Positions 1 through 37,754 of a stretch of DNA of 37,754 nucleotides are shown in pieces. The notes under the pieces are model-generated. The model did no database searches, was not told the DNA's origin, and saw only the letters and a list, made by a program, of their open reading frames with translations. Both the position numbers and the translations under genes were made by a program. Position 1 is the first letter of the stretch, and each line of letters opens with the position of its first letter. Origin of the DNA: Omnitrophica bacterium GWA2_41_15 (GTDB taxonomy: Bacteria; Omnitrophota; Gorgyraeia; Gygaellales; UBA12090); assembly GCA_919902675.1 (NCBI GenBank), contig CAKKRH010000043.1, positions 1 through 37,754 on the forward strand, given 5' to 3'.

Positions 1-1018
1 TTTCCAATTTGGCGATATTGTGGGCCACATCGTAGATTAAATCCATCCCCATCTTCTGCCAGGACATATTGAACACCTTTTCAAAGGCCTGACGGGCCAG
101 ATGCATCAAGCATTGACGGTTATTCCAGGCGTAGTTGGCTGCCGCGCGCATCGCCCCCAGGTAGCGCTTGGCCTCGGGTGAATTTACCGGAGCACAGGCC
201 AGCTGTCTATCCGGGATGTTAATTCCATATTTTCCCGGACAGGAGAGCATGCTCTTAACATAATCATCGCAGATTTGATAGCCGAAACCCCGCGAGCCGG
301 AGTGAATCATCAAGGTAACCTGGCCTTCTTCCAAGCCAAAGGCATCCGCGGTATCCGCGTCGTAAACCCGGTCAATAACCTGCACCTCTAAAAAATGATT
401 CCCGCTTCCCAGGGTTCCGGATTGGGCCTTGCCCCTTTCATACGCTTTTTCCGAAACCGCGTCCGGGTCAGCCCCGGCAATCGCCCCCTTTTCCTCAGTC
501 GCCTCCAGGTCCTCAGCCGTGCCGTAACCTTTAGACACCGCCCAGCCCGAACCTTTAAGCATTATCTGCTTCTCTTCTTTTTCGCTGGCCCGGATTTCTC
601 CTTTTGAACCCAGGCCGGAAGGAACAAAATTAAAAAGTTTTATTGCCAGCTCTTCAATTTTATCTTTTACTTCTTCATATCGCAGGTTTGTCCTTACTAA
701 CCTGACTCCGCAGTTGATGTCGTAGCCTACTCCTCCGGGTGAAATTACTCCGTCATTTTCAATATCAGTAGCGGCGACTCCTCCAATCGGAAAACCAAAA
801 CCCCAATGGATATCCGGCATAGCCAAAGAGGCATTGACGATTCCCGGTAAAAAGGCTACATTGGCCACCTGCTCCAGGGCCTTGTCTTTACGGATATCGG
901 TTAAAAGCTTTTCATCAGCGTAGATAATGCCGTCTACCCGCATTCCGGTTCGCGCGCTCTTAGGAAGCCTAAAGCGGTAATCGTCTATTTTTTCCAATTG
1001 TTCCCAAATTTCAGACAT
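1..1018 (-). CDS. rtcB: RNA-splicing ligase RtcB (3' end beyond window)
   Basis: GTP-dependent RNA ligase that joins 2',3'-cyclic phosphate or 3'-phosphate ends to 5'-OH ends in tRNA repair and splicing. My translation from the ATG at 1018 begins MSEIWEQLEKIDDYRFRLPK and carries the family signatures PDIHWGFGFPIGG, GGVGYDINCGVR (metal-binding Cys), GSGNHFLE (metal-binding His) and HSGSRGFGYQ. About 339 codons are visible; the rest of the roughly 480-residue protein, with the guanylylated histidine, lies left of the window. It follows archease after a 35-nt gap, the usual partner arrangement. The family call is secure; only completeness is unknown. Confidence 0.95.
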   Translation of the reverse strand, partial: MSEIWEQLEKIDDYRFRLPKSARTGMRVDGIIYADEKLLTDIRKDKALEQVANVAFLPGIVNASLAMPDIHWGFGFPIGGVAATDIENDGVISPGGVGYDINCGVRLVRTNLRYEEVKDKIEELAIKLFNFVPSGLGSKGEIRASEKEEKQIMLKGSGWAVSKGYGTAEDLEATEEKGAIAGADPDAVSEKAYERGKAQSGTLGSGNHFLEVQVIDRVYDADTADAFGLEEGQVTLMIHSGSRGFGYQICDDYVKSMLSCPGKYGINIPDRQLACAPVNSPEAKRYLGAMRAAANYAWNNRQCLMHLARQAFEKVFNMSWQKMGMDLIYDVAHNIAKLE

Positions 1019-1053
1019 ATTCTTATTTTCTTATATCGCGTAGTTCCGCGATT

Positions 1054-1464
1054 TCAGACATCAAAAATCACCCTTGCCGTGTAACCGCTCTTGGTTTTCT
1101 TAAATCCCAACTCGTGATAAGTAACCGCCTTGATCTCGGTTTTTATCTTATTATAGGACAGCTTTTGCCCAAAGGCAATGGCTTTGATTATTTTGTCATT
1201 CAATTCTCTTATGACAAATTCACCAAAGACTATCTGTTTTACGCTGTAAAGATAATTTAATTCAGAAAGCCACTCCTGAAGCAATTCATCATAGCCCGGA
1301 GCGTGTTTAATAATCTTAACTTTTTTAAGGGATTTAATGCCGGAGGTGTCCGCGATAATCTCAAACATCGCCTTCGCGGAATTGATAAAAATATCTTCTG
1401 GGGTTTTCCCCCGGACATCTATACCGATATCCGCGGTATGCCCGAAAATCCGGTAAGGTTTCAT
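1054..1464 (-). CDS. Archease, RtcB cofactor
   Basis: Small metal-binding protein that speeds RtcB guanylylation and turnover. At 136 residues it has normal family length. It shows the N-terminal HTADIGI motif with the metal-binding Asp, the central YDELLQEWLSELNYL helix, and the C-terminal hydrophobic strand ending in an Asp (ARVIFDV) that is part of the metal site. It is directly upstream of rtcB, so the two are probably one transcript. The start lies only 31 nt after the 3' end of tRNA-Lys, with no obvious separate promoter between them. The Shine-Dalgarno sequence is weak. Confidence 0.93.
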   Translation of the reverse strand: MKPYRIFGHTADIGIDVRGKTPEDIFINSAKAMFEIIADTSGIKSLKKVKIIKHAPGYDELLQEWLSELNYLYSVKQIVFGEFVIRELNDKIIKAIAFGQKLSYNKIKTEIKAVTYHELGFKKTKSGYTARVIFDV

Positions 1465-1495
1465 TTGAAGAAAACACTTTTAGGGGAAGAAAAAA

Positions 1496-1568
1496 TGGGC
1501 CATGTAGGAGTCGAACCTACGACCTTGACATTAAGAGTGTCCTGCTCTGCCAATTGAGCTAATGGCCC
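1496..1568 (-). tRNA. tRNA-Lys (anticodon CTT)
   Basis: Full cloverleaf read on the minus strand: acceptor GGGCCAT pairs with ATGGCCC plus discriminator A; D arm GCTC/GAGC; anticodon loop CTCTTAA gives anticodon CTT; T arm GTAGG-TTCGACT-CCTAC. Length is 73 nt and CCA is not encoded. The outermost anticodon-stem pair is a G-A mismatch, the other four pair. It lies just upstream of archease and rtcB on the same strand. Confidence 0.95.
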
Positions 1569-1709
1569 TTATATCATATACCTAACTTATTTTCAAATAG
1601 TTGCGAAGTTGCTGTTTCACATTACCAACTGCGAAACAAATGTTTGCCTAAAGCCGTAGAATTGAAAGTTAATTATATCTGCTTTTAAGACTGCTGACAA
1701 GAAAGATTT

Positions 1710-1985
1710 TTAAAGTTTTCTTATAAACGCCCTGACGGCATTATGGTCACCGACAAAAGCTATATTTATGACCCCGCTTTCCAACTTAAAGATTATCCGG
1801 TTGCAAATATCTATTCGGATCTCCCAATAGTTTTTACAAATCTTTTTCAGGCCCAGGCCTTCGGGCTTCCGGCGGCTTTCCAAGAAAGAGAGAAAATCAT
1901 CTATCGCCGATACGGCCTTCCTTTGAGCCGGAATATCCAGTTTCTTAAAAGAGCGGTCGTATGAACTAAGATAATTTATAACCAC
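1710..1985 (-). CDS. RelE/ParE-type toxin
   Basis: A 91-residue protein starting at GTG 1985, 2 nt after the upstream antitoxin stop. The pattern YDRSFKKLD...KAVSAIDDFL...GLGLKKI..NYWEIRI..CNRIIFKLESGVINIAFVGDHNAVRAFIRKL matches the RelE/ParE fold: two N-terminal helices, then a sheet with the WEIRI strand and a C-terminal catalytic or binding strand. RelE members cut mRNA on the ribosome and ParE members poison gyrase; the sequence alone does not say which. The two genes are tightly coupled, as expected for a toxin-antitoxin operon. Confidence 0.8.
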   Translation of the reverse strand: MVINYLSSYDRSFKKLDIPAQRKAVSAIDDFLSFLESRRKPEGLGLKKICKNYWEIRIDICNRIIFKLESGVINIAFVGDHNAVRAFIRKL

Positions 1986-1987
1986 GG

Positions 1988-2290
1988 CTATTCACCGTTC
2001 ATCAGCCTACGGGAGTGCGATTTAGCCTGTTTTATATCCCGGTAACTCTTATACGCGCCTTCTTTTAACTGCTTATTTACCAGCTTATCAAATTCTCTCC
2101 ATTCGCTATCGCTCAAAGAGCCCTCTTTCCCGGCGCCTTTAACTACCATATGCCTCAAGATAACACTATCGCCTTGCGGCTTAAACTCAATCAAATCCCC
2201 CGGCCGTATGCGCGCGGCCTTTCTTACCGCGTTCGGTATGGTAACCGTGCCTCTTTCAGAAACCACCGCCATACTCTTCATTCCAATCAT
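1988..2290 (-). CDS. AbrB/MazE-type antitoxin
   Basis: A 100-residue protein with a SpoVT/AbrB swapped-hairpin DNA-binding domain in the first 50 residues: SERGTVTIPNAVRKAARIRPGDLIEFKPQGDSVIL. The C-terminal half (SDSEWREFDKLVNKQLKEGAYKSYRD) is charged and helical and probably wraps the toxin. I chose the ATG at 2290 because AAGGAGGA lies 7 nt before it; an ATG at 2317 would put this ribosome site inside the gene. It is the first gene of the toxin-antitoxin operon and likely represses its own promoter at 2347-2374. Confidence 0.82.
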   Translation of the reverse strand: MIGMKSMAVVSERGTVTIPNAVRKAARIRPGDLIEFKPQGDSVILRHMVVKGAGKEGSLSDSEWREFDKLVNKQLKEGAYKSYRDIKQAKSHSRRLMNGE

Positions 2291-2346
2291 AACACCATCC
2301 TCCTTACATAATGACAATTATCTGCATTACCGTATTTCTGTAAGTA

Positions 2347-2374
2347 AGTATAACATATAAAACAATTTTGTCAA
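2347..2374 (-). promoter_or_regulatory. Sigma70-type promoter of the toxin-antitoxin operon
   Basis: On the minus strand a perfect TTGACA (2369-2374) is followed by 16 nt and TATACT (2347-2352). The antitoxin ATG at 2290 lies about 55 nt downstream, leaving room for the leader with its AAGGAGG site. Confidence 0.75.
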
Positions 2375-2669
2375 TATTGCAAAAAGGGCTTGTCATTTTT
2401 TATATTTGATATTCTTTCATATTTTTGGGCTATAGCTAATTACTTGCATTAATGAATTTCCCTGCCTGTATTTTGGCGTTAAAGGCCAGTCTATTGGCCG
2501 CAAACCAACAAAACCATAGTGTCTTACCGGGTTTAAAATTATAGGCCTCAAAAGCCTTAAAATGGCATTCTTTTTCGGGACGGAGCAAACGTGAGGTGGG
2601 GTAAAAAATGGTTAAATTGCTATTGCAGTAACTGTGAAGAAGCTAACGCTTCCAATCAAAAGTATAAAA
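2375..2669. other. Gene-free stretch upstream of the toxin-antitoxin promoter
   Basis: I see no convincing reading frame in about 300 nt. It holds a small hairpin at 2639-2652 (GAAGC-TAAC-GCTTC) just after the stop of the 2670 gene; read on the minus strand it contains GCGTTAG, the core motif of integron attC sites, but no partner arm is visible. A second inverted repeat, GGCC..GGCC, lies near 2485-2500. Confidence 0.5.
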
Positions 2670-2999
2670 TCAGGCAACTACCCAATAATTATTGGAAAGA
2701 AAGCACTCTAGCTCTTTAGATGCACGTTCAAACTGTCGTTGCATTTCAGCATCATCTAATCCCTTCAACCTTAAATTTTCCAATCTAAGTTTGATTATAT
2801 CCCTTTGAGTAATTAGCCCATACCCCTTTATCGTTGTCTGCCAATTCGGGACGCCCCATATCGCTTCCTCTCCACCCACTAATTCACCAGATAGACATTT
2901 ATCTAAATCCTGGTTTATTCTATCAAGTGCTCTTATGAAATTTTCGTAAGTAAAATCATGTTCTTTCAAAATATATGGAGACATATTAGTATTCATCAT
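2670..2999 (-). CDS. Hypothetical protein, 109 residues
   Basis: I do not recognise a family. The protein is soluble, mixed-charge and probably helical in its C-terminal half (RDIIKLRLENLRL...DDAEMQRQFERASKELECFL). The middle part has GGEEAIWGVPNWQT. I chose the ATG at 2999 because GGAAGGCGAGG lies just before it; an in-frame ATG at 3014 has no ribosome site. It starts about 20 nt after the stop of the membrane protein gene at 3022, so the two are likely one operon. Confidence 0.6.
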   Translation of the reverse strand: MMNTNMSPYILKEHDFTYENFIRALDRINQDLDKCLSGELVGGEEAIWGVPNWQTTIKGYGLITQRDIIKLRLENLRLKGLDDAEMQRQFERASKELECFLSNNYWVVA

Positions 3000-3021
3000 C
3001 CCCTCGCCTTCCATGTGGTTT

Positions 3022-3624
3022 TTAGTTAAAAACTTCTTTATATGCTTTGCTAATATTTCTTTCCCTTCTTAAAGATTCTTTCTCATCTGAGCTTGAGCTA
3101 AAATCTTGAAGATTAGATTTTTCAAACCGGAGAAGATTTGAAGCCACCTCTTTAACATCTTCACTTATTCCGATATATCTAAAGATTACAGTTTCGTCAA
3201 GAACTCCTGCCTCAGACAAACCATGATAAGCTAAACTGTATTCTTTCTTCCTACATTGTTTAATATATATCAGCAAAGCTTCAGCAATAATACTTTTTTC
3301 TTCTACTGTTGGCTTCTGAATTTTTAGCATTTTGTATATTTTGAAAAAACGCTTTAGCCTTTCCTTTTCACTCTTCAAAAAAGAGCCATAAAAACTCAGC
3401 GCTAAGAAGCAGGGAACAATAAGAAGAACAATAGTATGATTGACTTTCCATAAAAGTATAAGCCCAGCGACAAGAAAACTGAATGAAAAAATATTTATTA
3501 GTAAAACTGAGATTGGCTTATTAAGAATGACAGGTCTATTTAAGGATGGCCCGTTTGCATGTGTTGCATACCACTGCAAAATAAGAATTCCAACACCTGT
3601 AAAGATTATCCCCAAGATTAACAT
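3022..3624 (-). CDS. Hypothetical membrane protein, 200 residues
   Basis: No family recognised. The first residues form one membrane segment (LILGIIFTGVGILILQWY), followed by two more around residues 37-57 (VLLINIFSFSFLVAGLILLW) and 63-80 (HTIVLLIVPCFLALSFYG). The remaining roughly 115 residues are a charged cytoplasmic-type tail ending in a Ser/Glu-rich stretch (SSSSDEKESLRRE). The start is supported by a run of eight G about 6 nt upstream. It is followed closely by the 2670 gene. Confidence 0.65.
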   Translation of the reverse strand: MLILGIIFTGVGILILQWYATHANGPSLNRPVILNKPISVLLINIFSFSFLVAGLILLWKVNHTIVLLIVPCFLALSFYGSFLKSEKERLKRFFKIYKMLKIQKPTVEEKSIIAEALLIYIKQCRKKEYSLAYHGLSEAGVLDETVIFRYIGISEDVKEVASNLLRFEKSNLQDFSSSSDEKESLRRERNISKAYKEVFN

Positions 3625-3627
3625 GTT

Positions 3628-3676
3628 CTTGCCCCCCCCTAATTATACTTGCTCCCTAAAGTAAAAGGGGGGCAAG
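3628..3676. repeat. Perfect 10-bp inverted repeat around a -10 box
   Basis: CTTGCCCCCC (3628-3637) and GGGGGGCAAG (3667-3676) are exact inverted copies with a 29-nt spacer. The spacer holds, on the minus strand, a TATAAT box a few bases upstream of the G-run ribosome site of the 3022-3624 gene. It could be an operator or cruciform site. No clear -35 box is seen. Confidence 0.5.
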
Positions 3677-3685
3677 CGTTTTTAA

Positions 3686-3779
3686 GTCTAACGCCCAACT
3701 ATTAGGTAAAAGCGAAAGACCGCCTGCCCCGAAAGCACCGAAGTGCTCCGAAACATAGTCCTTTCCTCCTAATAGTTGG
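3686..3779 (-). repeat. Palindrome with an attC-like core, possible integron cassette boundary
   Basis: Read on the minus strand, a perfect 12-bp inverted repeat CCAACTATTAGG...CCTAATAGTTGG (3768-3779 and 3695-3706) encloses 61 nt that themselves contain a GCAC-CGAA-GTGC hairpin. It is followed directly by GCGTTAGAC, a perfect GTTRRRY core at 3686-3692. Position (3' of a gene) and orientation match the two better attC sites in this window. The opposite RYYYAAC core is not clear, so this could be an ordinary hairpin. Confidence 0.35.
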
Positions 3780-3863
3780 TTTTTGGAATAGGAAAGCTGT
3801 GTTCCTATTATTTTATTTGAACCTTATTTTAAAATGCCTCCCTTGTTGTTAACCACCAATCGT

Positions 3864-4553
3864 TTATATTTTATTATAAAGAGCCATTCTTGAATTTATT
3901 TTTTTCTTTAATAGCCCTGCTCCCATTAGACCAAGAATAAATAAAAGAAACGATGGGGGCTCAGGAACGGCATTCAACGTAATATCCCCATCACGGACAG
4001 CCCATGCAAATGCTTCAGGAACACGTCTATCAGCAGTTGCCTGATATCCGCTTACAGTCCAATCATCAGGACCACCTTTGAACCGAAAAGCCCAATCAAA
4101 AGTAGGGTCAACAAATTCAGTGCTTGACCGATACCAATATGGTTGCACATTAACAAACAGTCCCATATTAGGAGATAAATCCTTAGCCACATTATTAAGC
4201 CCTATGTAATACAGGATTCCCATTTCGCTTCCAGCATGCCAACCACCTTCTTCTAAAAAGGTTTTAGGCAGACGCCAATCGTTATAAACTATGCTTGTCC
4301 GGAGATCGGTGTATTCCAGTGCATCAGCCCATGTTAAAGCATCTTCATGAGTTAAGCCTCCATTGGTATTGTATCCGTAAAGGGCATCGTCATATCCAGC
4401 TGTATTAGCATAGTTAGCATCTTGAAGCCAAGTAAGATTCTGCACGTCGTCATAAATCAAACCATACCCTCTGTCAATAAGTGCGGCATAGCAAGTAGTG
4501 CGCAACAAGAATATAGCCAAAGATGCAAAAATTATTTTTAATGGCCTGTTCAT
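3864..4553 (-). CDS. Exported protein with PEP-CTERM sorting signal (DUF1566-like)
   Basis: A 229-residue secreted protein. It begins with a signal peptide (NRPLKIIFASLAIFLLRTTCYA), has a body resembling the DUF1566/Lcl C-terminal domain (YDDVQNLTWLQDANY..., WADAL..., DWRLPK, WYRSSTE, WAVRDGD), and ends in a PEP-CTERM tripartite tail: VPEPPS, a hydrophobic segment (FLLFILGLMGAGLL) and basic KKK. Such proteins are handled by exosortase and placed in the envelope or exopolysaccharide; no exosortase is in the window. The ATG at 4553 was chosen because GGAGGAGAAGAA stands directly before it. Cargo function is unknown. Confidence 0.8.
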   Translation of the reverse strand: MNRPLKIIFASLAIFLLRTTCYAALIDRGYGLIYDDVQNLTWLQDANYANTAGYDDALYGYNTNGGLTHEDALTWADALEYTDLRTSIVYNDWRLPKTFLEEGGWHAGSEMGILYYIGLNNVAKDLSPNMGLFVNVQPYWYRSSTEFVDPTFDWAFRFKGGPDDWTVSGYQATADRRVPEAFAWAVRDGDITLNAVPEPPSFLLFILGLMGAGLLKKKINSRMALYNKI

Positions 4554-29983: not shown

Positions 29984-30004
29984 AGTAAACGCGCAAGCAA
30001 TCTT

Positions 30005-30064
30005 TTAACTCTACAAACTCTATAAACTCTATAAACTCTATAAACTCTATAAACTCAATGAACT
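30005..30064. repeat. Tandem CTCTATAAA repeat
   Basis: About six copies of AACTCTATAA in the gap between metF and cooC. No gene, no clear hairpin. Confidence 0.75.
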
Positions 30065-30934
30065 CTATAAACCCGCGGCATCCAAAACCTTGGGCACTAA
30101 TTTATCCCAGCCGATAGGCATAATATGTATGCCCTGGCACATCGGCTTAAGCTCTTTAATCAAACGGGAGGCAATCTCAATTGACTGGGCCTGTTTATCT
30201 TTGGTATCCCGCATTTCATTAATCAGATTATCCGGCACGGAAATTCCGGCTACATTCTCATTCATATATTTAGCCATCCCCGCTGACTTCAGCAAGACTA
30301 TCCCGGCAATAACCGCGGTCTTAAGATGCTTGGTTTTGGAGAGAAAGTTTTCGAAACTCTTGAGATCATACACTGCCTGGGTCTGAAAAAACTCCGCTCC
30401 CGCCTCTATCTTTTTCTCCATCTTCATAATCTGCGGCTCCAAAGGATCCGAGCCGGGATTAACCACCGCCCCAACGCAGAATTTCGGCAAAACGCCTTCT
30501 AATTTTTTCCCGGCCATATCCAGCCCCTGTTCCAGGCGGCGGATCACCTGGATAAGCTGGACCGAGTCAATATCAAAAACTGCCTTGGCGTGAGGATGGT
30601 CCCCTAATTTAGGATGATCTCCGGTCAAGGCCAGGATATTCTCAATTCCAAAATTGGCCGCGGAGAGGATATCCGATTGCAGGGCCAGGCGGTTGCGGTC
30701 CCGGCAGGTAACCTGATACACCGGCTCAAAACCTTTTTCCTTAAGCCGGATGCTTACCGCCAGAGAACCCAGGCGCATCACTGAACTCTGTAAATCAGTA
30801 ACATTGATCGCGTCCACCCTGCCCCGCACTAATTCCGCGTCTTCTAAGATGTGTCCGGACTCTATTCCTTTGGGAGGGCCGACTTCGCTGGTAAGGATAA
30901 ACTTTCCCGTCTGAATTTTTTCTTTAAAGGTCAT
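30065..30934 (-). CDS. metF: Methylenetetrahydrofolate reductase
   Basis: Reduces 5,10-methylene-THF to 5-methyl-THF, the methyl donor for the acetyl-CoA pathway. 289 residues of FAD-binding TIM-barrel type: TSEVGPPKGI, DAINVTDLQSSVMRLGSLA, PVYQVTCRDRNRLALQSD, ILALTGDHPKLGDHP, AGAEFFQTQAVYDL. It sits after folD with a 68-nt gap. The zinc protein MetV, the usual partner in acetogens, is not adjacent. Confidence 0.93.
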   Translation of the reverse strand: MTFKEKIQTGKFILTSEVGPPKGIESGHILEDAELVRGRVDAINVTDLQSSVMRLGSLAVSIRLKEKGFEPVYQVTCRDRNRLALQSDILSAANFGIENILALTGDHPKLGDHPHAKAVFDIDSVQLIQVIRRLEQGLDMAGKKLEGVLPKFCVGAVVNPGSDPLEPQIMKMEKKIEAGAEFFQTQAVYDLKSFENFLSKTKHLKTAVIAGIVLLKSAGMAKYMNENVAGISVPDNLINEMRDTKDKQAQSIEIASRLIKELKPMCQGIHIMPIGWDKLVPKVLDAAGL

Positions 30935-31002: not shown

Positions 31003-31866
31003 CTATAGCTTATACTGCAGTTTAGCCGCCTCCACCACATTGCGCATCAGCATAGTTACGGTCAAAGGGCCTACTCCTCCGGGCACCGGAGTAATCCAGG
31101 AAGCCCGCTTAGAGGCCTCTTCAAACTCTATATCGCCGACTATTCTTTCATTTACTCTGTTTATCCCCACATCCACCACAATGGCTCCCTCTTTAATCCA
31201 TTCGCCTTTGATTAAGTTTGCCCGGCCTACCGCGACCACCAGGACCTCAGCCTTTTGGACATGCTCCCGGGTTAGGCCCCGCTCACCGGTAGCGATATGA
31301 CAAACAGTAGTTGTGGCGAACTGCTCCAATAAAAGCAGGCTCAAGGGCTTTCCCACTATCTCGCTGTGTCCGACTATCACTGCTTCTTTTGCGCGCAGAT
31401 TGACTCCGGTTGAACGCAATAACTCCATCACGCTGTTGGCGGTACAGGGAATAAATTTGGCCCGGCCGAAGAAAAGTTTACCTAAGTTTTCCGGATGCAT
31501 GCCTTCGGCGTCCTTAAAGGGTAAGATGTGCCGGGGAACTAAACGCGAATCAATATGGCCTGGTAAAGGCATCTGGATGAAAACAGCCGAAGTATCTTTA
31601 TCGCTATTGAGTGAATCCAGAAAAGAAAAAAACTTATCCTGAGGTATATCCTGGGGGAGCTTATGATGGCGGTATTCTATATCCAGCTCGGCGGCGCATT
31701 TTATCTGGGATTTAAAGTAAACCTCAGCCGCCGGGTTATCCCCAATCTGCACCCCGGCCAAAACCGGGCTTTTGCCGGATGCGGACTTTAGCAAAGCGAC
31801 TTCTTTTTTTATCTCTTCTTTTATCTTTAAGGCAAGAGGCTTGCCTTCCAAAAGCTTAGCGCTCAT
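31003..31866 (-). CDS. folD: Methylenetetrahydrofolate dehydrogenase (FolD), cyclohydrolase Lys replaced
   Basis: 287 residues. The substrate signature GDNPAAEVYFKSQIKCA aligns with E. coli SQIYVASKRKAC; the Tyr is Y50 but position 54, the catalytic lysine of cyclohydrolase activity, is Q (codon CAG). IQMPLPGHI keeps the conserved Gln, and KDVDG reads KDAEG. The NAD(P) site VIVGHSEIVGKPLSLLL is intact, as is the C-terminal PVPGGVGPLTVTML. It therefore probably keeps dehydrogenase but not cyclohydrolase activity. It overlaps fchA by 4 nt (ATGA), and fchA encodes the missing step. Confidence 0.93.
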   Translation of the reverse strand: MSAKLLEGKPLALKIKEEIKKEVALLKSASGKSPVLAGVQIGDNPAAEVYFKSQIKCAAELDIEYRHHKLPQDIPQDKFFSFLDSLNSDKDTSAVFIQMPLPGHIDSRLVPRHILPFKDAEGMHPENLGKLFFGRAKFIPCTANSVMELLRSTGVNLRAKEAVIVGHSEIVGKPLSLLLLEQFATTTVCHIATGERGLTREHVQKAEVLVVAVGRANLIKGEWIKEGAIVVDVGINRVNERIVGDIEFEEASKRASWITPVPGGVGPLTVTMLMRNVVEAAKLQYKL

Positions 31867-32414
31867 TTAAATCTATATTTTAGATCGGTGATTGTTTTTT
31901 TGGTCTGGGAGATAAAGCCTTTATCCTTGATAAGCGGAAGATTAATTATAACATTAAATATCGCGGATTTAAAGCAAGATTTTAATAATTCTTCACCCAC
32001 GCGCACATCGCTGATTAAATACTTATTGGCGATCTTCTTTAAGAGCGGGCAAAGCCCGTATCCCTTCGACGCTAAAACACCTATTTCAAGCGGGACCCGG
32101 GTTGAGGCAATCAGGTTTTTCTGATAAACATCTTCTTTGGCCAGGCGGCTGTTAAAAACCTTTTGATAGGCCCGAACATCCAAATCCACCAAAGACAAAA
32201 ATCTCCCGCGCAAATACTCAGTCTCCTTTAAGGCGGATTTTATCTTTGGCTCCACATCTTTATACTTTTCTTTGCCGACGGTAAAATTACAGGCCATACT
32301 TAACAGCGCGCACCCCAGAGCCCCGGTCAAGGCCGCCGCCGACCCCCCTCCGGGAGCGGGCTTTTTAGCCGCCAAATCATCCAAGTAGGTTTTAAGGGAG
32401 TTGTCTTTATACAT
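31863..32414 (-). CDS. fchA: Methenyltetrahydrofolate cyclohydrolase FchA
   Basis: 183 residues of the formimidoyl-THF cyclodeaminase/cyclohydrolase family: KKPAPGGGSAAALTGALGCALLSMACNFTVG is the glycine-rich substrate-binding start, then a helical bundle with VDLDVRAYQKVFN and ISDVRVGEELLKSCF. It hydrolyses 5,10-methenyl-THF to 10-formyl-THF or the reverse. ATG 32414 has GGTGA about 8 nt upstream; TTG 32423 is a weaker choice. It lies directly beside the integron insert that separates it from fhs. Confidence 0.88.
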   Translation of the reverse strand: MYKDNSLKTYLDDLAAKKPAPGGGSAAALTGALGCALLSMACNFTVGKEKYKDVEPKIKSALKETEYLRGRFLSLVDLDVRAYQKVFNSRLAKEDVYQKNLIASTRVPLEIGVLASKGYGLCPLLKKIANKYLISDVRVGEELLKSCFKSAIFNVIINLPLIKDKGFISQTKKTITDLKYRFK

Positions 32415-32485
32415 ATAAATCAATCACCAAATTCAGCCGCCTTATGGAGCGGCGAAGCCGCGAAACAAGATCAACTACTAATATC

Positions 32486-32543
32486 CAATAACCACAAAAT
32501 TAAGGCGTGGCCATAGGCCATCGCCTTCAACGTATTGTTAAAA
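32486..32543 (-). repeat. attC-type recombination site 2 (58 nt)
   Basis: On the minus strand it starts TTTTAAC (R'', 32537-32543), continues AATACGTTG, forms a stem AAGGCGATGGCC/GGCCACGCCTT with loop TAT and one unpaired base in the 5' arm, and ends GTTATTG (R', 32486-32492). Order, length, AAC/GTT triplets and the extrahelical base match integron attC sites such as those of aadA cassettes. It lies immediately 3' of the DUF2442 gene. R' deviates from GTTRRRY at two positions. Confidence 0.72.
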
Positions 32544-32545
32544 AT

Positions 32546-32806
32546 TTATTTATATGTTAATGGATAATTTTCAGGATTTTCTAAAATTTCTGTGGTTAAA
32601 TCTACATCTAATTTTGGCCAGTATAAATGATGACCGCGTATTAACTCCACATCAGTGATTGATGATATTTTCGCGTCTTTAAACCATGGATATTCGTTAA
32701 AGGAAAGGAAATATTCCTTACCTTTCAAGTATATCCAAAATCCGTGCTCAGAAATGTTAGTTATTTCTGGCTTTAAGATGTTCTTTCCATTTTTTAATAA
32801 TTTCAT
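32546..32806 (-). CDS. DUF2442 protein
   Basis: An 86-residue protein with the DUF2442 pattern: NISEHGFWIYLKGKEYFLSFNEYPWFKDA, then a VELIRGHHLYWPKLDVDLTTE end. The ATG at 32806 has AAAGG upstream; an in-frame ATG at 32824 is possible. It overlaps the DUF4160 gene by about 50 nt in another frame. DUF4160/DUF2442 pairs are common on mobile regions and resemble toxin-antitoxin modules, but no activity is established. Confidence 0.8.
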   Translation of the reverse strand: MKLLKNGKNILKPEITNISEHGFWIYLKGKEYFLSFNEYPWFKDAKISSITDVELIRGHHLYWPKLDVDLTTEILENPENYPLTYK

Positions 32807-33005
32807 TTTTGCGCCTTTCAACAATTTTTTGCAAAGAATTTAATTGTTTCGAGGAAAACCCCGAATAATTTACTAATGCGGTAGTGGGTTCCAACCAAAA
32901 TTTTGCTTCTCCTTCGGGAGAAATAATATGCACATGTATTCTGTTTTCTTCTTTTGAGAAAAAATGAAATCTGTAGTTTCCTATTTTAAATACTGTTGGG
33001 CTCAA
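32757..33005 (-). CDS. DUF4160 protein
   Basis: An 82-residue protein: TVFKIGNYRFHFFSKEENRIHVHIISPEGEAKFWLEP, then the helical RKNEIIKKWKEHL end, fitting DUF4160. It starts with TTG at 33005, supported by AGGAGG 10 nt upstream; a TATAAT box lies just before that. It is translated together with the overlapping DUF2442 gene. Confidence 0.8.
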   Translation of the reverse strand: MSPTVFKIGNYRFHFFSKEENRIHVHIISPEGEAKFWLEPTTALVNYSGFSSKQLNSLQKIVERRKNEIIKKWKEHLKARNN

Positions 33006-33167
33006 AGCTTATTGCCTCCTTTTAAAATTATAACATAATTATTTATGAATTTTACTTATTTTTTATTCATTTCTTTTACTCTGAAGATTCCTTTTAAATT
33101 TACTTGCAACTACATTATATTCAATGCCTTACGCGGAAACGACACTATTTAGTTCAGGTTGGAATTC

Positions 33168-34364
33168 TTACTTTTTTCTGAAAACAACGATACGATTGGA
33201 ATTAGTGCCACGCTCGTTATTTTTTATACCCCAACAATTTGATGTTTTGGTGAATTGCTGAGTATTAATCAATACATACTCAGGCACTAAACCAACCTCG
33301 CGGCCCGCCTTCAACACTTCTAATTCTAGACGAATAGTTCCTTTCCTGACTTCGCCTACTTCGAAAGCAATTAATCCGTCAGGTTTTAAGATGCGGTGTA
33401 ATTCTAAAAGCACGGATTTCATTCGCTCCGTCCAATCTGCTACAGAACGAATCTTCCACATTAAAGAAGCATCAACTGAACTTATAGAAAACCACATTCT
33501 GAGCCAATTGTCTTGAAGATAATCAACGGCGTCTAAAAAAGGCGGAGACGTGACAACTAAATCAACAGAATCTGAATCTATCTGTGGAATATAATCTGCT
33601 GATGCCACAAATAAAATAGGCGCATGTTCGGAATAATCCCTTGGCAATGCATCTTTCAGTAAAGCTTTTGTCTTTTTCCAGATTAGCTCACGCGTATTCC
33701 GATATTCCGGTCTCTGATTTAATTTTAAATTGATCTTTCGCTGACGCTCAACTGAGACGGCTTGATTAGGCGGGAGTGTATAGACGGAAAAGAAGCCAGG
33801 CGAATGGCCGGAAAGCCTACTGATCACCACCATATCAATCCACTCATCAATCGAATCCAAAAGATTCAATTCTCGTCGGTGCGCGAAATATCGCTTCCAT
33901 GACTCAATCTCTCGAAGCGTGTCAGGATGATAGAATTCAAGTAATCCTGTATTCTTAGGCTCTTCGTCTCCTAAAACAACAGAATCTAATCTTTTCTTAA
34001 TACACGCAATAGGGGGAGGACATAGCCTCGCCTTAGCAAGTTTTAGGCAAACAGGATTGATGTCGCTTCCTATAACAGAACAGCTATGCATCCTAGCCTG
34101 TACCAATGTAGTGCCGCGCCCTAGAAAGGGATCATAAACAACACTTCCTTTCTTTGTATAACGTGAAAGAAAATAATCAGGAAGCTGCGGCTTATAGCAA
34201 GCTCGGTAGGAGACTTCGTGGATAGAGTGACAATCCCGCTGTTTAGAAGTCCAATACTCTCCAGCGTGGACAGGAACTACACCACCCTCAAATTCATATT
34301 CCTCCACTCTATCGAGTGCCGTGGTTTCTGCGGAATCAAATAGTAAAGCTTGTATGTGTGCCAT
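33168..34364 (-). CDS. DNA methyltransferase of a type II system (N4-C or N6-A)
   Basis: A 398-residue SAM-dependent DNA methylase. SAM motif YDPFLGRGTTLVQA near residue 76, followed by VIGSDINPVCLKLA, and the catalytic TSPPFLDAVDYLQDNW near residue 286; S/T-PP-F is more common in N4-cytosine enzymes. Final FEVGEVRKGT and the C-terminal strand fit the N4/N6 family PF01555. It overlaps the upstream nuclease-like gene by 29 nt. GC content and intergenic style differ from the Wood-Ljungdahl genes on both sides. The target sequence is not predictable. Confidence 0.82.
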   Translation of the reverse strand: MAHIQALLFDSAETTALDRVEEYEFEGGVVPVHAGEYWTSKQRDCHSIHEVSYRACYKPQLPDYFLSRYTKKGSVVYDPFLGRGTTLVQARMHSCSVIGSDINPVCLKLAKARLCPPPIACIKKRLDSVVLGDEEPKNTGLLEFYHPDTLREIESWKRYFAHRRELNLLDSIDEWIDMVVISRLSGHSPGFFSVYTLPPNQAVSVERQRKINLKLNQRPEYRNTRELIWKKTKALLKDALPRDYSEHAPILFVASADYIPQIDSDSVDLVVTSPPFLDAVDYLQDNWLRMWFSISSVDASLMWKIRSVADWTERMKSVLLELHRILKPDGLIAFEVGEVRKGTIRLELEVLKAGREVGLVPEYVLINTQQFTKTSNCWGIKNNERGTNSNRIVVFRKK

Positions 34365-34926
34365 ATGACAAAATTTTATGGTTAACGGATGCCTCTAGTC
34401 GAACGCTCACAGATGTAGTGGGCTCTAGGAAATCGAGTCGAATATGTTCTACAATAACTACATCGCCTTTTTTGTGATATAAAACAGTAAGGAGTAAATG
34501 GTGTATTGGGCTTTTAAATTCTTTTCGTATTTTTTCCGACGAAGAAGTCAATACTCGACGATTTGAATCATTCGGATTCCAGTCACTTGTCGCTTTCACC
34601 TCAAGAGGAATGCGCAGTCTAGTTTTCTTCTGCGTAAGAACTCGGTCAGGGTAGCCTGCACCAGAGCACTTTCCAAGGTCAAATTTCAACATTTTATCAG
34701 AGAGAATCGGCAAAGTCTTATCCTCGACCTGATTTCCTATACTTTGATTTGAACTGTGAGGCCGAAGCGAACATCGTAATCCGATAATGCTTCCACTATT
34801 TACCGCTTGGCGAATATCAGACTTAATTTTCGTAATAAGTTTCGGTGGCCATGCATTTACGAGTTCAATATGGGGAATTTCTTCCCAAACGAGCAGGTCT
34901 TTATAGTAGTTTTTTAGCGTAGCCAT
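34336..34926 (-). CDS. Predicted type II restriction endonuclease
   Basis: A 196-residue protein with a candidate PD-(D/E)xK site: the Asp in GYPDRVL and, 15 residues on, LEVKAT, with a basic strand between them. The N-terminal part has SIIGLRCSLRPHS. Its 3' end overlaps the DNA methyltransferase gene, the usual form of a restriction-modification pair. I do not recognise a named enzyme. The ribosome site is weak. Confidence 0.62.
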   Translation of the reverse strand: MATLKNYYKDLLVWEEIPHIELVNAWPPKLITKIKSDIRQAVNSGSIIGLRCSLRPHSSNQSIGNQVEDKTLPILSDKMLKFDLGKCSGAGYPDRVLTQKKTRLRIPLEVKATSDWNPNDSNRRVLTSSSEKIRKEFKSPIHHLLLTVLYHKKGDVVIVEHIRLDFLEPTTSVSVRLEASVNHKILSYGTHTSFTI

Positions 34927-34982
34927 TTTACATATTTTTTCGTTTTATTTCCACGGGGCGGGAAAGTGGTTTGTTTTATTTT

Positions 34983-35042
34983 ACCCAACGCCTGAAATAA
35001 GCCGCGCCGCTATGCGGCGGCGGCTTCATTGTGTTGTTATAG
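34983..35042 (-). repeat. attC-type recombination site 1 (60 nt)
   Basis: On the minus strand it starts CTATAAC (R'', 35036-35042), then AACACAATG, a stem AAGCCGCCGCCGC/GCGGCGCGGCTT with one unpaired base in the 5' arm, TATTTCAGGC, and ends GTTGGGT (R', 34983-34989), a perfect GTTRRRY. The pattern is close to class-type attC sites (CAAGCCG...CGGCTT...GCGTTRGRY). It lies 3' of the 35127-36080 gene and before the restriction gene, as a cassette boundary should. Confidence 0.8.
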
Positions 35043-35126
35043 TCTCATTTATTTATACTTTTATGAATATCTCTGATTCTTCCCTTTGGATTGAAATTTT
35101 ATAGCTGAATCTATTTTTCTATTTTT

Positions 35127-36080
35127 TCAGCCGTTATATTTGTAAATTTTCCCAGTTTGATTATTCCGAATTGTACAGGCTTTCTTTTTATACGAATATG
35201 TAAAAAATATTTCAGAATTAATAATAGCTTCTCTTAAAGCTTTCGTATTTCTTTTATAAAATCCCCTAACACTCCAGAAGGTTATTACAAAAGAACTTAA
35301 AAGCCAAAAAATTATTTGATTATTTATAAGAACAAAAGGCAATAAGACCACGGTGCCTATATATCCTACAATACTTATATAATTATTACGAGGATTGAGC
35401 GGATTAGAAAATACGAAGGTTAATCCAACTATAGGAATAGCAAAAAACAGATAATAATTTTTTAAAATTAAAGCAAAAATAATAGCAATAGATAATATAA
35501 TCCAAGGAATTATTGCAAGTATTAAAAGCAATATCTTAACAAACCTAGTGTTAATAAACGTTGCAGCTTCTGTTGCTGCTGAATATTCTATACCAATTGT
35601 ATATTCATTTTTATGAACCGCATCTTTCAACTTTTGAAAAGAATCAAATGGAAAACCTGATATTTCTGAGACGTATTCTAATTTATTTAGTTTACTTAGC
35701 TTTACTTCTATTTTACTTATTGAATCAGAATAATAATTATTTCTAAATGCTTCATTATTTGAATTTTGTTTAATAGGAAAAATCAAGATTAATATAAAAT
35801 ACCAAAATGACTCAATTATTATTAATAATGGAGAAAATATACCGAGAAGCCAGAGCAACAATAGTAAGTAACCAATAACTGTAATAGCACCAAAAACCCA
35901 CCAAGTCAATCCATGTACAGGTGTGTTTGGATTGTAGAGAGTACTAACAAATAAGATTAGCAACAATCCTAAAAATAATAACGAAATATCAACCGATAAA
36001 TATTCTAATGGTTTTGATTCTCTCCATGATTTTTTGAATTGTTTAACTGTTTTATCAAAAGAATATTTGAATCTATTCAT
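35127..36080 (-). CDS. Hypothetical membrane protein, first cassette gene
   Basis: 317 residues, strongly AT-rich and unlike its neighbours in codon use. At least six membrane segments: YLSVDISLLFLGLLLILFVSTL, WWVFGAITVIGYLLLLLWLL, FSPLLIIIESFWYFILILIF, ILLLILAIIPWIILSIAIIF, YYLFFAIPIVGLTFVF and GYIGTVVLLPFVLI, with a hydrophilic stretch around residues 115-175. No family recognised. It is the gene nearest to the promoter pair and the recombinase stump, which fits a first-position integron cassette. Confidence 0.65.
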   Translation of the reverse strand: MNRFKYSFDKTVKQFKKSWRESKPLEYLSVDISLLFLGLLLILFVSTLYNPNTPVHGLTWWVFGAITVIGYLLLLLWLLGIFSPLLIIIESFWYFILILIFPIKQNSNNEAFRNNYYSDSISKIEVKLSKLNKLEYVSEISGFPFDSFQKLKDAVHKNEYTIGIEYSAATEAATFINTRFVKILLLILAIIPWIILSIAIIFALILKNYYLFFAIPIVGLTFVFSNPLNPRNNYISIVGYIGTVVLLPFVLINNQIIFWLLSSFVITFWSVRGFYKRNTKALREAIINSEIFFTYSYKKKACTIRNNQTGKIYKYNG

Positions 36081-36152
36081 ATTAATTTATCATTTTATAA
36101 CATATAATATACGAGTTCGCTTTTTGTGGCAGTTTGCAGTACCCTGAAGCTA

Positions 36153-36180
36153 AGTATAGCATACCAACCAAAGATTTCAA
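36153..36180 (-). promoter_or_regulatory. Leftward promoter, possible cassette promoter (Pc)
   Basis: On the minus strand TTGAAA (36175-36180), 16 nt, then TATACT (36153-36158) preceded by TGC, an extended -10. It points into the cassette genes. Confidence 0.65.
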
Positions 36181-36191
36181 CACGCTTTTAT

Positions 36192-36219
36192 TTGACATAT
36201 TTTACATTTTACCTATAAT
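36192..36219 (+). promoter_or_regulatory. Rightward promoter of the recombinase remnant (Pint-like)
   Basis: Perfect consensus TTGACA (36192-36197), 16 nt, TATAAT (36214-36219), pointing at the 36273 stump. Its -35 box lies only 11 nt from that of the leftward promoter, so the two are back to back. Confidence 0.7.
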
Positions 36220-36272
36220 AGCGTAAAATACGAATTCGCTTTTTATGAGTTTTTGTACTTTTTAAGGTTATA

Positions 36273-36380
36273 ATGCTTAAGGGTATCTTAGCTGACTTTC
36301 AGGAATTCCTTACTTCACGCGGGGGGCTTGCCGATGAAAAGCATGCCCCGTTCTACGCGCGCCGGGTAAGTAAGTTTTGA
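36273..36380 (+). pseudogene. N-terminal stump of an integron-integrase-like tyrosine recombinase
   Basis: ATG at 36273 opens 35 codons ending at TGA 36378: MLKGILADFQEF, then LTSRGGLADEKHAPFYARRV. The spacing of F..FL, EKHAPFYARRVSKF matches the first helices of the SAM-like core-binding domain seen at the N-terminus of environmental IntI/XerC proteins. Nothing recognisable of the catalytic domain (R..HxxR..Y) follows before fhs. It is the only plus-strand gene trace in the window. The match is by eye and short, so confidence is moderate. Confidence 0.5.
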
Positions 36381-36447
36381 GGGATTCTCTGGTAACTGGT
36401 TACCGGTTTCCCCGGCCTGTTTCGCTTTACCGGGGCAGGCTGGTTTC
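36381..36447. other. Hairpin-rich gap at the 3' end of fhs
   Basis: Contains GGTAAC-TG-GTTACC (36391-36404) and CCCCGG...CCGGGG (36410-36435). They may end fhs transcription on the minus strand or be what remains at the edge of the integron; no T run follows. Confidence 0.4.
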
Positions 36448-37754
36448 TCACGATAATCCTACAATGTTTCCCTTTTTGTCAATATCCATCCGTAAAAGCG
36501 CGGGTTTTGAGGGCAGGCCGGGCATGGTCTGCATCTTGCCGCATAAGGGATAAAGAAAACCGGCGCCGACCGAGGCCCGGATGTCCCGCACCGGCAGGAT
36601 AAATCCCTCCGGCCTTCCTTTTAGATTCGGGTCGTGGGACAAAGAGAGATGGCTCTTGGCCATACATATAGGAAGCTTATCGTAGCCTAACTGGCTAAAC
36701 TTGGCTATTTTTTCTTCAGCTATAGGCTCATACTCCACATCCTTGGCCCCGTAAACCTTGGTGGCAATAGTCCTTATCTTATCTTTAATCGGCATATCCA
36801 GAGGATATAAAAACTTGAAATTATTTTTTTCTTTTGCCGCGCTGACTACCGCCTTGGCCAAGGCTATCGCCCCCTTAGAACCCTTGGCCCATACCTCGCT
36901 GACAAAACAGCCGCTGGCTCCGGCAGAAATTGCCTTTTTCTTCACTAATTCAATCTCTCTATCAGTATCAGTGGCAAATCTATTCAGCGCCACAATGCAG
37001 GGAAGTCCGAATAAGCGCACATTTTCAATCTGCTTCTCTAAATTACATATCCCGGCGCTCACCGCCTCTAAATCTTCGGCAACTAAACCTTGTTCCAGAG
37101 GCTTACCGGCAACCACATTAAATCTTCCGGAGTGCATCTTTAAGGCCCGGACGGTTGAAACCATCACCACCGCGTCCGGCTTAAGACCGGAATAACGGCA
37201 TTTTATGTCAAAGAATTTTTCCGCGCCTAAATCCGTGCCGAATCCCGCCTCAGTAACCACAAAATCGGCCAGACGCAGGGCAATCTGATCCGCGATAATT
37301 GAGCTGTTACCATGGGCAATATTTCCAAACGGGCCGGCATGGACCATCACCGGACTATGCTCTAAAGTCTGAATCAGATTGGGTTTAATCGCGTCTTTCA
37401 ATAAGATGCACATACTCCCGGCCAGGCCCAACTGATCCGCGGTTACCGGTTTTCCCGAGAAGTCTTCCGCAACCACCATCCGGCCTAAGCGTTTACGCAA
37501 ATCAGCTAAACCGGTAGTTAAAGCGAGTATAGCCATTACCTCAGAGGCAACCGCGATATCAAAACCGGTATCCCGGCTTATGCCGTCATCTTTACCTCCC
37601 AGGCCAATCTTGATATTGCGCAAGAACCTGTCCGACACATCCAATACCCTTCTTAAATAAATCTTTTCCGGATTTATGTTTAGAGGATTACCTTTAAGAA
37701 TATAATTATCCAAGAAGGCGCAGGCCAAATTATTAGCCATCCCCACGGCATGGA
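36448..37754 (-). CDS. fhs: Formate-tetrahydrofolate ligase (5' end beyond window)
   Basis: ATP-dependent formation of 10-formyl-THF from formate, the entry step of the methyl branch. About 435 of the usual ~557 residues are visible; the frame runs off the right edge, so the N-terminus with the ATP-binding P-loop is not seen. Recognisable parts: HAVGMANNLACAFLDNYI, PVTADQLGLAGSMCILLKDA, GPFGNIAHGNSSIIADQIAL, VVTEAGFGTDLGAEKFFDI, LFGLPCIVALNRFATDTD, and the C-terminal VGAGFLYPLCGKMQTMPGLP. fchA, the next pathway gene, is 4 kb away across the integron. Confidence 0.96.
   Translation of the reverse strand, partial: HAVGMANNLACAFLDNYILKGNPLNINPEKIYLRRVLDVSDRFLRNIKIGLGGKDDGISRDTGFDIAVASEVMAILALTTGLADLRKRLGRMVVAEDFSGKPVTADQLGLAGSMCILLKDAIKPNLIQTLEHSPVMVHAGPFGNIAHGNSSIIADQIALRLADFVVTEAGFGTDLGAEKFFDIKCRYSGLKPDAVVMVSTVRALKMHSGRFNVVAGKPLEQGLVAEDLEAVSAGICNLEKQIENVRLFGLPCIVALNRFATDTDREIELVKKKAISAGASGCFVSEVWAKGSKGAIALAKAVVSAAKEKNNFKFLYPLDMPIKDKIRTIATKVYGAKDVEYEPIAEEKIAKFSQLGYDKLPICMAKSHLSLSHDPNLKGRPEGFILPVRDIRASVGAGFLYPLCGKMQTMPGLPSKPALLRMDIDKKGNIVGLS

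Follow-up and report, generated by a model that had tools for sequence, protein, structure and literature searches.

What kind of element separates fhs from fchA in the Wood-Ljungdahl gene set of an Omnitrophota bacterium, and how did it come to lie there? We examined this locus in the window, by which we mean the whole stretch of 37,754 nucleotides that was analysed; it is contig C43 of a MAG (G000) of 1.74 Mb that is 80% complete. On the minus strand the gene order is fhs, insert, fchA, folD, metF, cooC and cooS, with tandem CTATAAACT-type repeats between cooC and metF (window 30000-30070). An initial annotation had described the insert as a fossil integron inside this gene set, and the analysis supports that core reading, with every part that had been listed found at or near its proposed place. 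The extent that it had given, 32415-36447, stands in part. The insert proper spans about 32415-36383, and 36386-36447 is a spacer that is also present in the empty site of G001. The parts and their order, which are observed directly, are listed below from fhs to fchA.

36448-37752, minus strand: fhs (formate-tetrahydrofolate ligase), left flank, continuing past the window end; 96.5% identity with G001
36386-36447, minus strand: palindromic repeat-like spacer 3' of the fhs stop, outside the integron; missing in G002
36367-36383, minus strand: fchA 5' end, left copy (CCCTCAAAACTTACTTA), joined to the intI stump; the full version in G002 is 44 bp
36273-36377, plus strand: intI stump, the first 35 codons of an integron integrase and then a stop (tblastn with IntI of the phylum); same breakpoint in G002
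36228-36244, minus strand: AAAAAGCGAATTCGTAT, intI-proximal copy; a second, diverged copy overlaps attI
36192-36219, plus strand: PintI, TTGACA-16-TATAAT, by consensus match only (12/12 positions)
36180-36153, minus strand: Pc, TTGAAA-16-TATACT with TG, by consensus match (10/12) and alignment with G137
36098-36118, minus strand: attI, GAACTCGTATATTATATG{{bar}}TTA, the bar marking the presumed crossover; matches attI at eleven loci with intact intI
35127-36080, minus strand: cassette 1, a 317-aa membrane protein without family (profile searches without match)
34983-35041, minus strand: attC 1, covariance model 35.3 bits, E = 3.9e-6; folding z about -4
34336-34926, minus strand: cassette 2, gene 1, 196 aa, putative restriction endonuclease (PLEVKAT motif by eye; adjoins the methyltransferase)
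33168-34364, minus strand: cassette 2, gene 2, type II DNA methyltransferase (Pfam N6_N4_Mtase, E = 1e-16; PADLOC MTase_II, E = 3e-133)
33126-33151, minus strand: right half of a decayed attC, by eye; common to G002
32757-33005, minus strand: cassette 3, gene 1, DUF4160 (E = 1e-15; 95% identity in G002)
32546-32824, minus strand: cassette 3, gene 2, DUF2442 (E = 7e-14; 98% identity in G002)
32486-32542, minus strand: attC 2, covariance model 26.1 bits, E = 6.2e-4, a weak match; the G002 counterpart was also found
32418-32462, minus strand: right half of a third attC, directly 5' of fchA, by eye; resembles a G006 attC at L239:215-288
31863-32414, minus strand: fchA, right flank, with its own ATG start (FTCD_C, E = 5e-47)

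The recombinase trace proposed for the plus strand was located at 36273-36380, which translates to MLKGILADFQEFLTSRGGLADEKHAPFYARRVSKF and a stop. The N-terminus of six intact Omnitrophota IntI proteins matches this stump (identity 43-59%; lowest E = 3.5e-6 in tblastn), and 6/6 of these proteins match better here than anywhere else in the window. Apart from Xer genes, a whole-genome IntI search recovered the stump in G000 and its positional equivalent in G002; one Xer protein extracted from G000 gave no match at the stump, and the 35-aa peptide is not recognised by Pfam or NCBIfam. The functional intI with an IntI-specific domain that characterises a complete integron is lacking: 35 codons are left, and no IntI above the TIGR02249 cut-off was found in G000 or in eight other genomes of the family (MAGs 64-94% complete). 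Since intI is reduced to a stump and no recombinase is made from it, any later site-specific gain or loss of cassettes at this place would have depended on an IntI supplied in trans.

Next to the stump, the two divergent promoters that had been proposed were found as an opposed PintI and Pc. Promoter-like sites in total are no more numerous than expected by chance (15 observed, 15.2 expected), so the case for these promoters rests on the perfect PintI consensus, on position and on conservation with intact integrons, the region between intI and attI aligning with its counterparts in the intact integrons of G137 and G022. As in a complete integron, attI lies beside intI, here the stump, and Pc is predicted to read into the array, divergent from intI. 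Eleven loci whose intI is intact have the attI sequence (consensus AAGTTCGTATATTAATTGTTA) just 5' of cassette 1 of their array, and the attI at L129 has the same TATATTATATGTTA variant as the window. The loss of Pc in G002 appears to have occurred by deletion between the two AAAAAGCGAATTCGTAT copies.

To describe the attC-type sites that had been placed between the minus-strand genes, we used a covariance model (R1). It was built from 22 aligned sites, out of a collection taken from arrays beside intact intI of the phylum together with one class 1 site; the window and its genus contributed no site. In the alignment 94% of cells are paired, and the covariation score is 0.437, as compared with 0.143 for shuffled and at most 0.085 for slid alignments. 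As a positive control, R1 found 6/6 class 1 attC sites in two plasmid integrons, one of these sites having been in the training set. In the window it matches 34983-35041 and 32486-32542 on the minus strand, which is the gene strand, so that both sites lie 3' of cassette genes in the same orientation, as in a complete integron; the next-best match has an E value of about 2. The initial annotation had staked its reading on model hits at 32486-32543 and 34983-35042, and R1 matches both. Each of the two sites also folds far better than shuffles, on either strand. An Rfam scan gave no attC match. A first home-made attC scorer recovered class 1 sites and placed none in the window above threshold; its core-site filter was too strict, and it was replaced by the covariance model.

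The cargo consists of ordinary cassette types. Cassette 2 is probably a restriction-modification pair, judging from its gene content: the DNA methyltransferase that defines a type II system is present, and searches of Pfam, NCBIfam, PADLOC and PDB sequences gave nothing for the adjoining 196-aa protein. Cassette 3 carries a DUF4160/DUF2442 pair which, by family assignment alone, is of a kind known from toxin-antitoxin cassettes; its gene 1 product scores 17 bits in the DhiT toxin family against a curated cut-off of 100, and a DhiT-type pair was not recognised. The earlier suggestion that cassette promoters help to drive fchA is unsupported, because the search for sigma-70-like sites gave none on that strand, the minus strand, from about 33.7 kb to fchA (about 1.3 kb). 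An extended -10 5' of DUF4160 may conceivably act as a promoter.

Taken together with its cargo, the insert might be read as a defence or toxin-antitoxin island in which hairpins resemble attC by chance, as genes of this type are found in such islands. That reading is scarcely credible when set against attC E values of 4e-6 and 6e-4, as compared with about 2 for noise, the right orientation 3' of genes, and an intI stump and attI in the same insert. In IntegronFinder usage a CALIN is an attC cluster lacking an integron integrase (PMC9024848), and the window agrees in having the minimum of two attC sites within 4 kb of each other (34983 and 32542, 2.4 kb) and no neighbouring functional intI; it differs by an attI, a Pc, a PintI and a stump of intI, none of which belongs to that definition. 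Under the definition the element counts as a CALIN with attI; its anatomy is that of an integron whose integrase is dead. An ordinary CALIN would have arisen if IntI had inserted cassettes singly at a secondary site, here the fhs-fchA junction, without a platform of its own. The array formally fits the definition, and CALINs remote from the main integron are common, for example in about half of Xanthomonas genomes (PMC12444791), but cassette insertion cannot supply what is seen 5' of cassette 1, a correctly ordered and spaced set of intI stump, PintI, Pc and attI, and we regard this origin as improbable.

The junction was also compared among relatives. Distant relatives with the same genes in the same order and no attC sites had been named as evidence that would speak against an integron; the relatives instead show fhs beside fchA. 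The two genes adjoin or overlap in G001 and in six genomes at a greater distance, G012, G013, G014, G019, G033 and G034, which bears out the proposal that the insert splits an operon. G002, of the same genus, agrees with the window in its intI breakpoint, in having an attI and in the DUF cassette, whose proteins are 95-98% identical and whose attC is also present; it lacks the membrane and restriction-modification cassettes as well as Pc, and has a nucleotidyltransferase-like gene 5' of fchA. On each side of its insert lies a 44-bp copy of the fchA 5' end, the two forming direct repeats with 89% identity, and the left copy in the window (36367-36383) is shorter; both the common breakpoint and the direct repeats are direct observations. 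Direct repeats are not a general rule around arrays without intI. The window and G002 diverge directly after the attI core GTT, a split that fits site-specific exchange and post-dates the shared truncation of intI, and from this we infer an integrase in trans. At the left border of the DUF cassette, the sequence common to the window and G002 extends 13 bases past the crossover, so this border must be the product of a plain deletion.

The G001 junction is empty, and the start of fchA is fused there to a window-like left flank at the duplicated stretch; the region with the ATG start that other genera have is missing. It looks like a deletion scar, and deletion between two fchA copies is more parsimonious than an insert that was never present. 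Possibly G001 never carried the insert, a reading against which the fusion of fchA to a window-type flank and the missing ATG start region both speak; a tree of the three congeners leaves the history of G001 undecided (informative sites 79, 86 and 133). At this empty site the palindromic repeat-like element (window 36386-36447) forms the N-terminus of the fchA reading frame. In G006, from another genus of the same family, what comes after fhs at L086:6012-7279 (G006:C10) is about 1.1 kb of unrelated inserted DNA and next a truncated fchA 5' piece at the contig end, with full-length fchA on a separate contig, L069 (G006:C18); fchA may thus be a place where insertions recur.

A CALIN lies at the uvrC 5' end in L237 (G002:C43; 1921-1956 and 4704-4739), with a second uvrC 5' copy on its far side; that copy (36 bp, 86%) stands beside a run of N, and the pattern is as at fchA. 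The region 5' of aroC has similar flanks and differing content in L263 (G000:C1) and L262 (G001:C29), with an apparent toxin-antitoxin pair in G000, including an XRE-type regulator by eye, and an attI and one cassette with a half attC in G001.

Two further readings must be weighed against this comparison. The data come from MAGs, and the contigs of G002 and G006 have gaps or ends near the site, which might suggest an assembly or binning artefact. Both flanks and the insert, however, lie on a single 37.8 kb contig, and an independent congener MAG has the identical intI breakpoint and DUF cassette, so that an artefact seems very improbable. A fully dead fossil is a serious competitor, to which we give somewhat less than an even chance: the array would have arrived complete, and the later differences between species would reflect deletion and decay, with no IntI in trans. 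A family in which IntI was not detected, the half attC sites, the Pc loss in G002 and the deletion-like border 5' of the DUF cassette all agree with such a history. Deletions would, however, land only by chance at the attI core GTT, exactly where the window and G002 part.

We consider it highly probable that the element is an integron platform which lacks a working integrase and landed in fchA, with some probable cassette exchange in trans and probable decay since. A segment running from intI codon 35 through PintI, Pc and attI into the array would have entered the fchA 5' end in an ancestor of the genus. The event would have duplicated about 44 bp of that end next to fhs and left fchA itself intact at the opposite border. 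Cassette exchange after landing would have been served by IntI in trans, as two species share the truncated intI and differ in cassettes, and some such exchange probably did occur. The landing of a truncated-intI platform in the fchA 5' end fits the element better than the decay of an integron at its birthplace. The array is probably frozen and decaying now, because no intact IntI is found in the family today. For the same reason it is by comparison that we infer activity in trans; the means by which the segment was duplicated or relocated, and the sequence of gains and losses, are inferred as well. Counting against this explanation are the nine family genomes without intact IntI, the weak attC 2, the two half attC sites, the DUF cassette border that points to at least one plain deletion, and the unsettled congener tree.

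Integrons had been thought unusual in such a lineage, and the survey of the phylum does not agree: IntI above the cut-off is encoded in 18/384 sampled Omnitrophota genomes, and attC sites at E <= 0.001 occur in 44/237. Word searches of the open-licence literature found no paper on integrons in Omnitrophota, and the name Omnitrophota is absent from the integron papers that were searched for it. Copies of attI without adjacent intI were observed at L242:3105-3265 (G137:C107), L323/L324 (G307:C87, C110), L297/L298 (G001:C29, C38) and L238/L239 (G006:C18, C23), in G138 (C3, C11, C12 and C17), where no intI was found in a genome 95% complete, and further in G278, G288 and G272. Among 22 such copies, two of whose regions were originally fetched for their attC sites, an attC lies within 2 kb downstream on the attI strand in 16, upstream in two and on the opposite strand in one. 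In G137, identity between the copy and the region that flanks the resident intI is 98.8% over 161 bp; the two G307 copies reach 86% over 165 bp and 80% over 154 bp with the corresponding region. With up to 3 mismatches, the attI pattern gave 43 matches in 28 chosen genomes and 12 for a reversed control, so single loose matches are unreliable. Platforms of attI without intI are thus dispersed in several Omnitrophota genomes and are mostly followed by attC cassettes; the window, as judged from its sequence, is a member of this class in which an intI stump has been retained. In the G006 array at L239 (G006:C18), repeated fragments at 825-4326 resemble by eye the end of a REP-associated (IS200-like) transposase gene, and they break up the cassettes and attC sites.

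Known systems resemble the window in part. The sedentary chromosomal integron beside ilvD in Xanthomonas (PMC12444791) likewise has a broken intI with attI and cassettes kept, and its array is stabilised near a core metabolic gene with cassettes that vary by species; its intI, however, lies at one ancestral place, whereas the window has a 35-codon stump fused into the fchA 5' end, a duplicated fchA 5' end and a family without remaining IntI. Intact Omnitrophota integrons (G137, G022, G250, G307 and others) share with the window the attI sequence, the divergent intI, the Pc region and the attC type, and differ in that the window has a truncated intI and a short, degenerate array. The platforms at G137:C107 and G307:C87/C110 also have attI and its upstream region without functional intI, with attC cassettes after the attI of C107 and C87 (the C110 contig stops 160 bp past attI); unlike the window, they have an intact intI elsewhere in the genome, and the copies are without recognised intI codons.

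Tentatively, and with more doubt than confidence, we propose that attI-Pc modules of Omnitrophota are copied elsewhere without intI and serve as satellite landing platforms filled in trans by a resident or visiting IntI, the window being such a satellite that split a Wood-Ljungdahl operon and kept exchanging cassettes after truncation of its intI. The wider set of intI-less attI platforms is more surprising than the window itself and is contrary to the usual descriptions, in which integrons typically have one attI, close to intI (PMC9024848; PMC9668308). Outside class 1, attI sites are poorly described, and IntegronFinder does not search for them (PMC9024848). The fchA locus provides a small natural series of a core carbon-fixation operon that is occupied, differently occupied or apparently healed. 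If true, the presence of several intI-less attI sites per genome in this phylum would alter the reading of integrase-less arrays, and such multi-copy sites would set the integrase apart from its landing sites.
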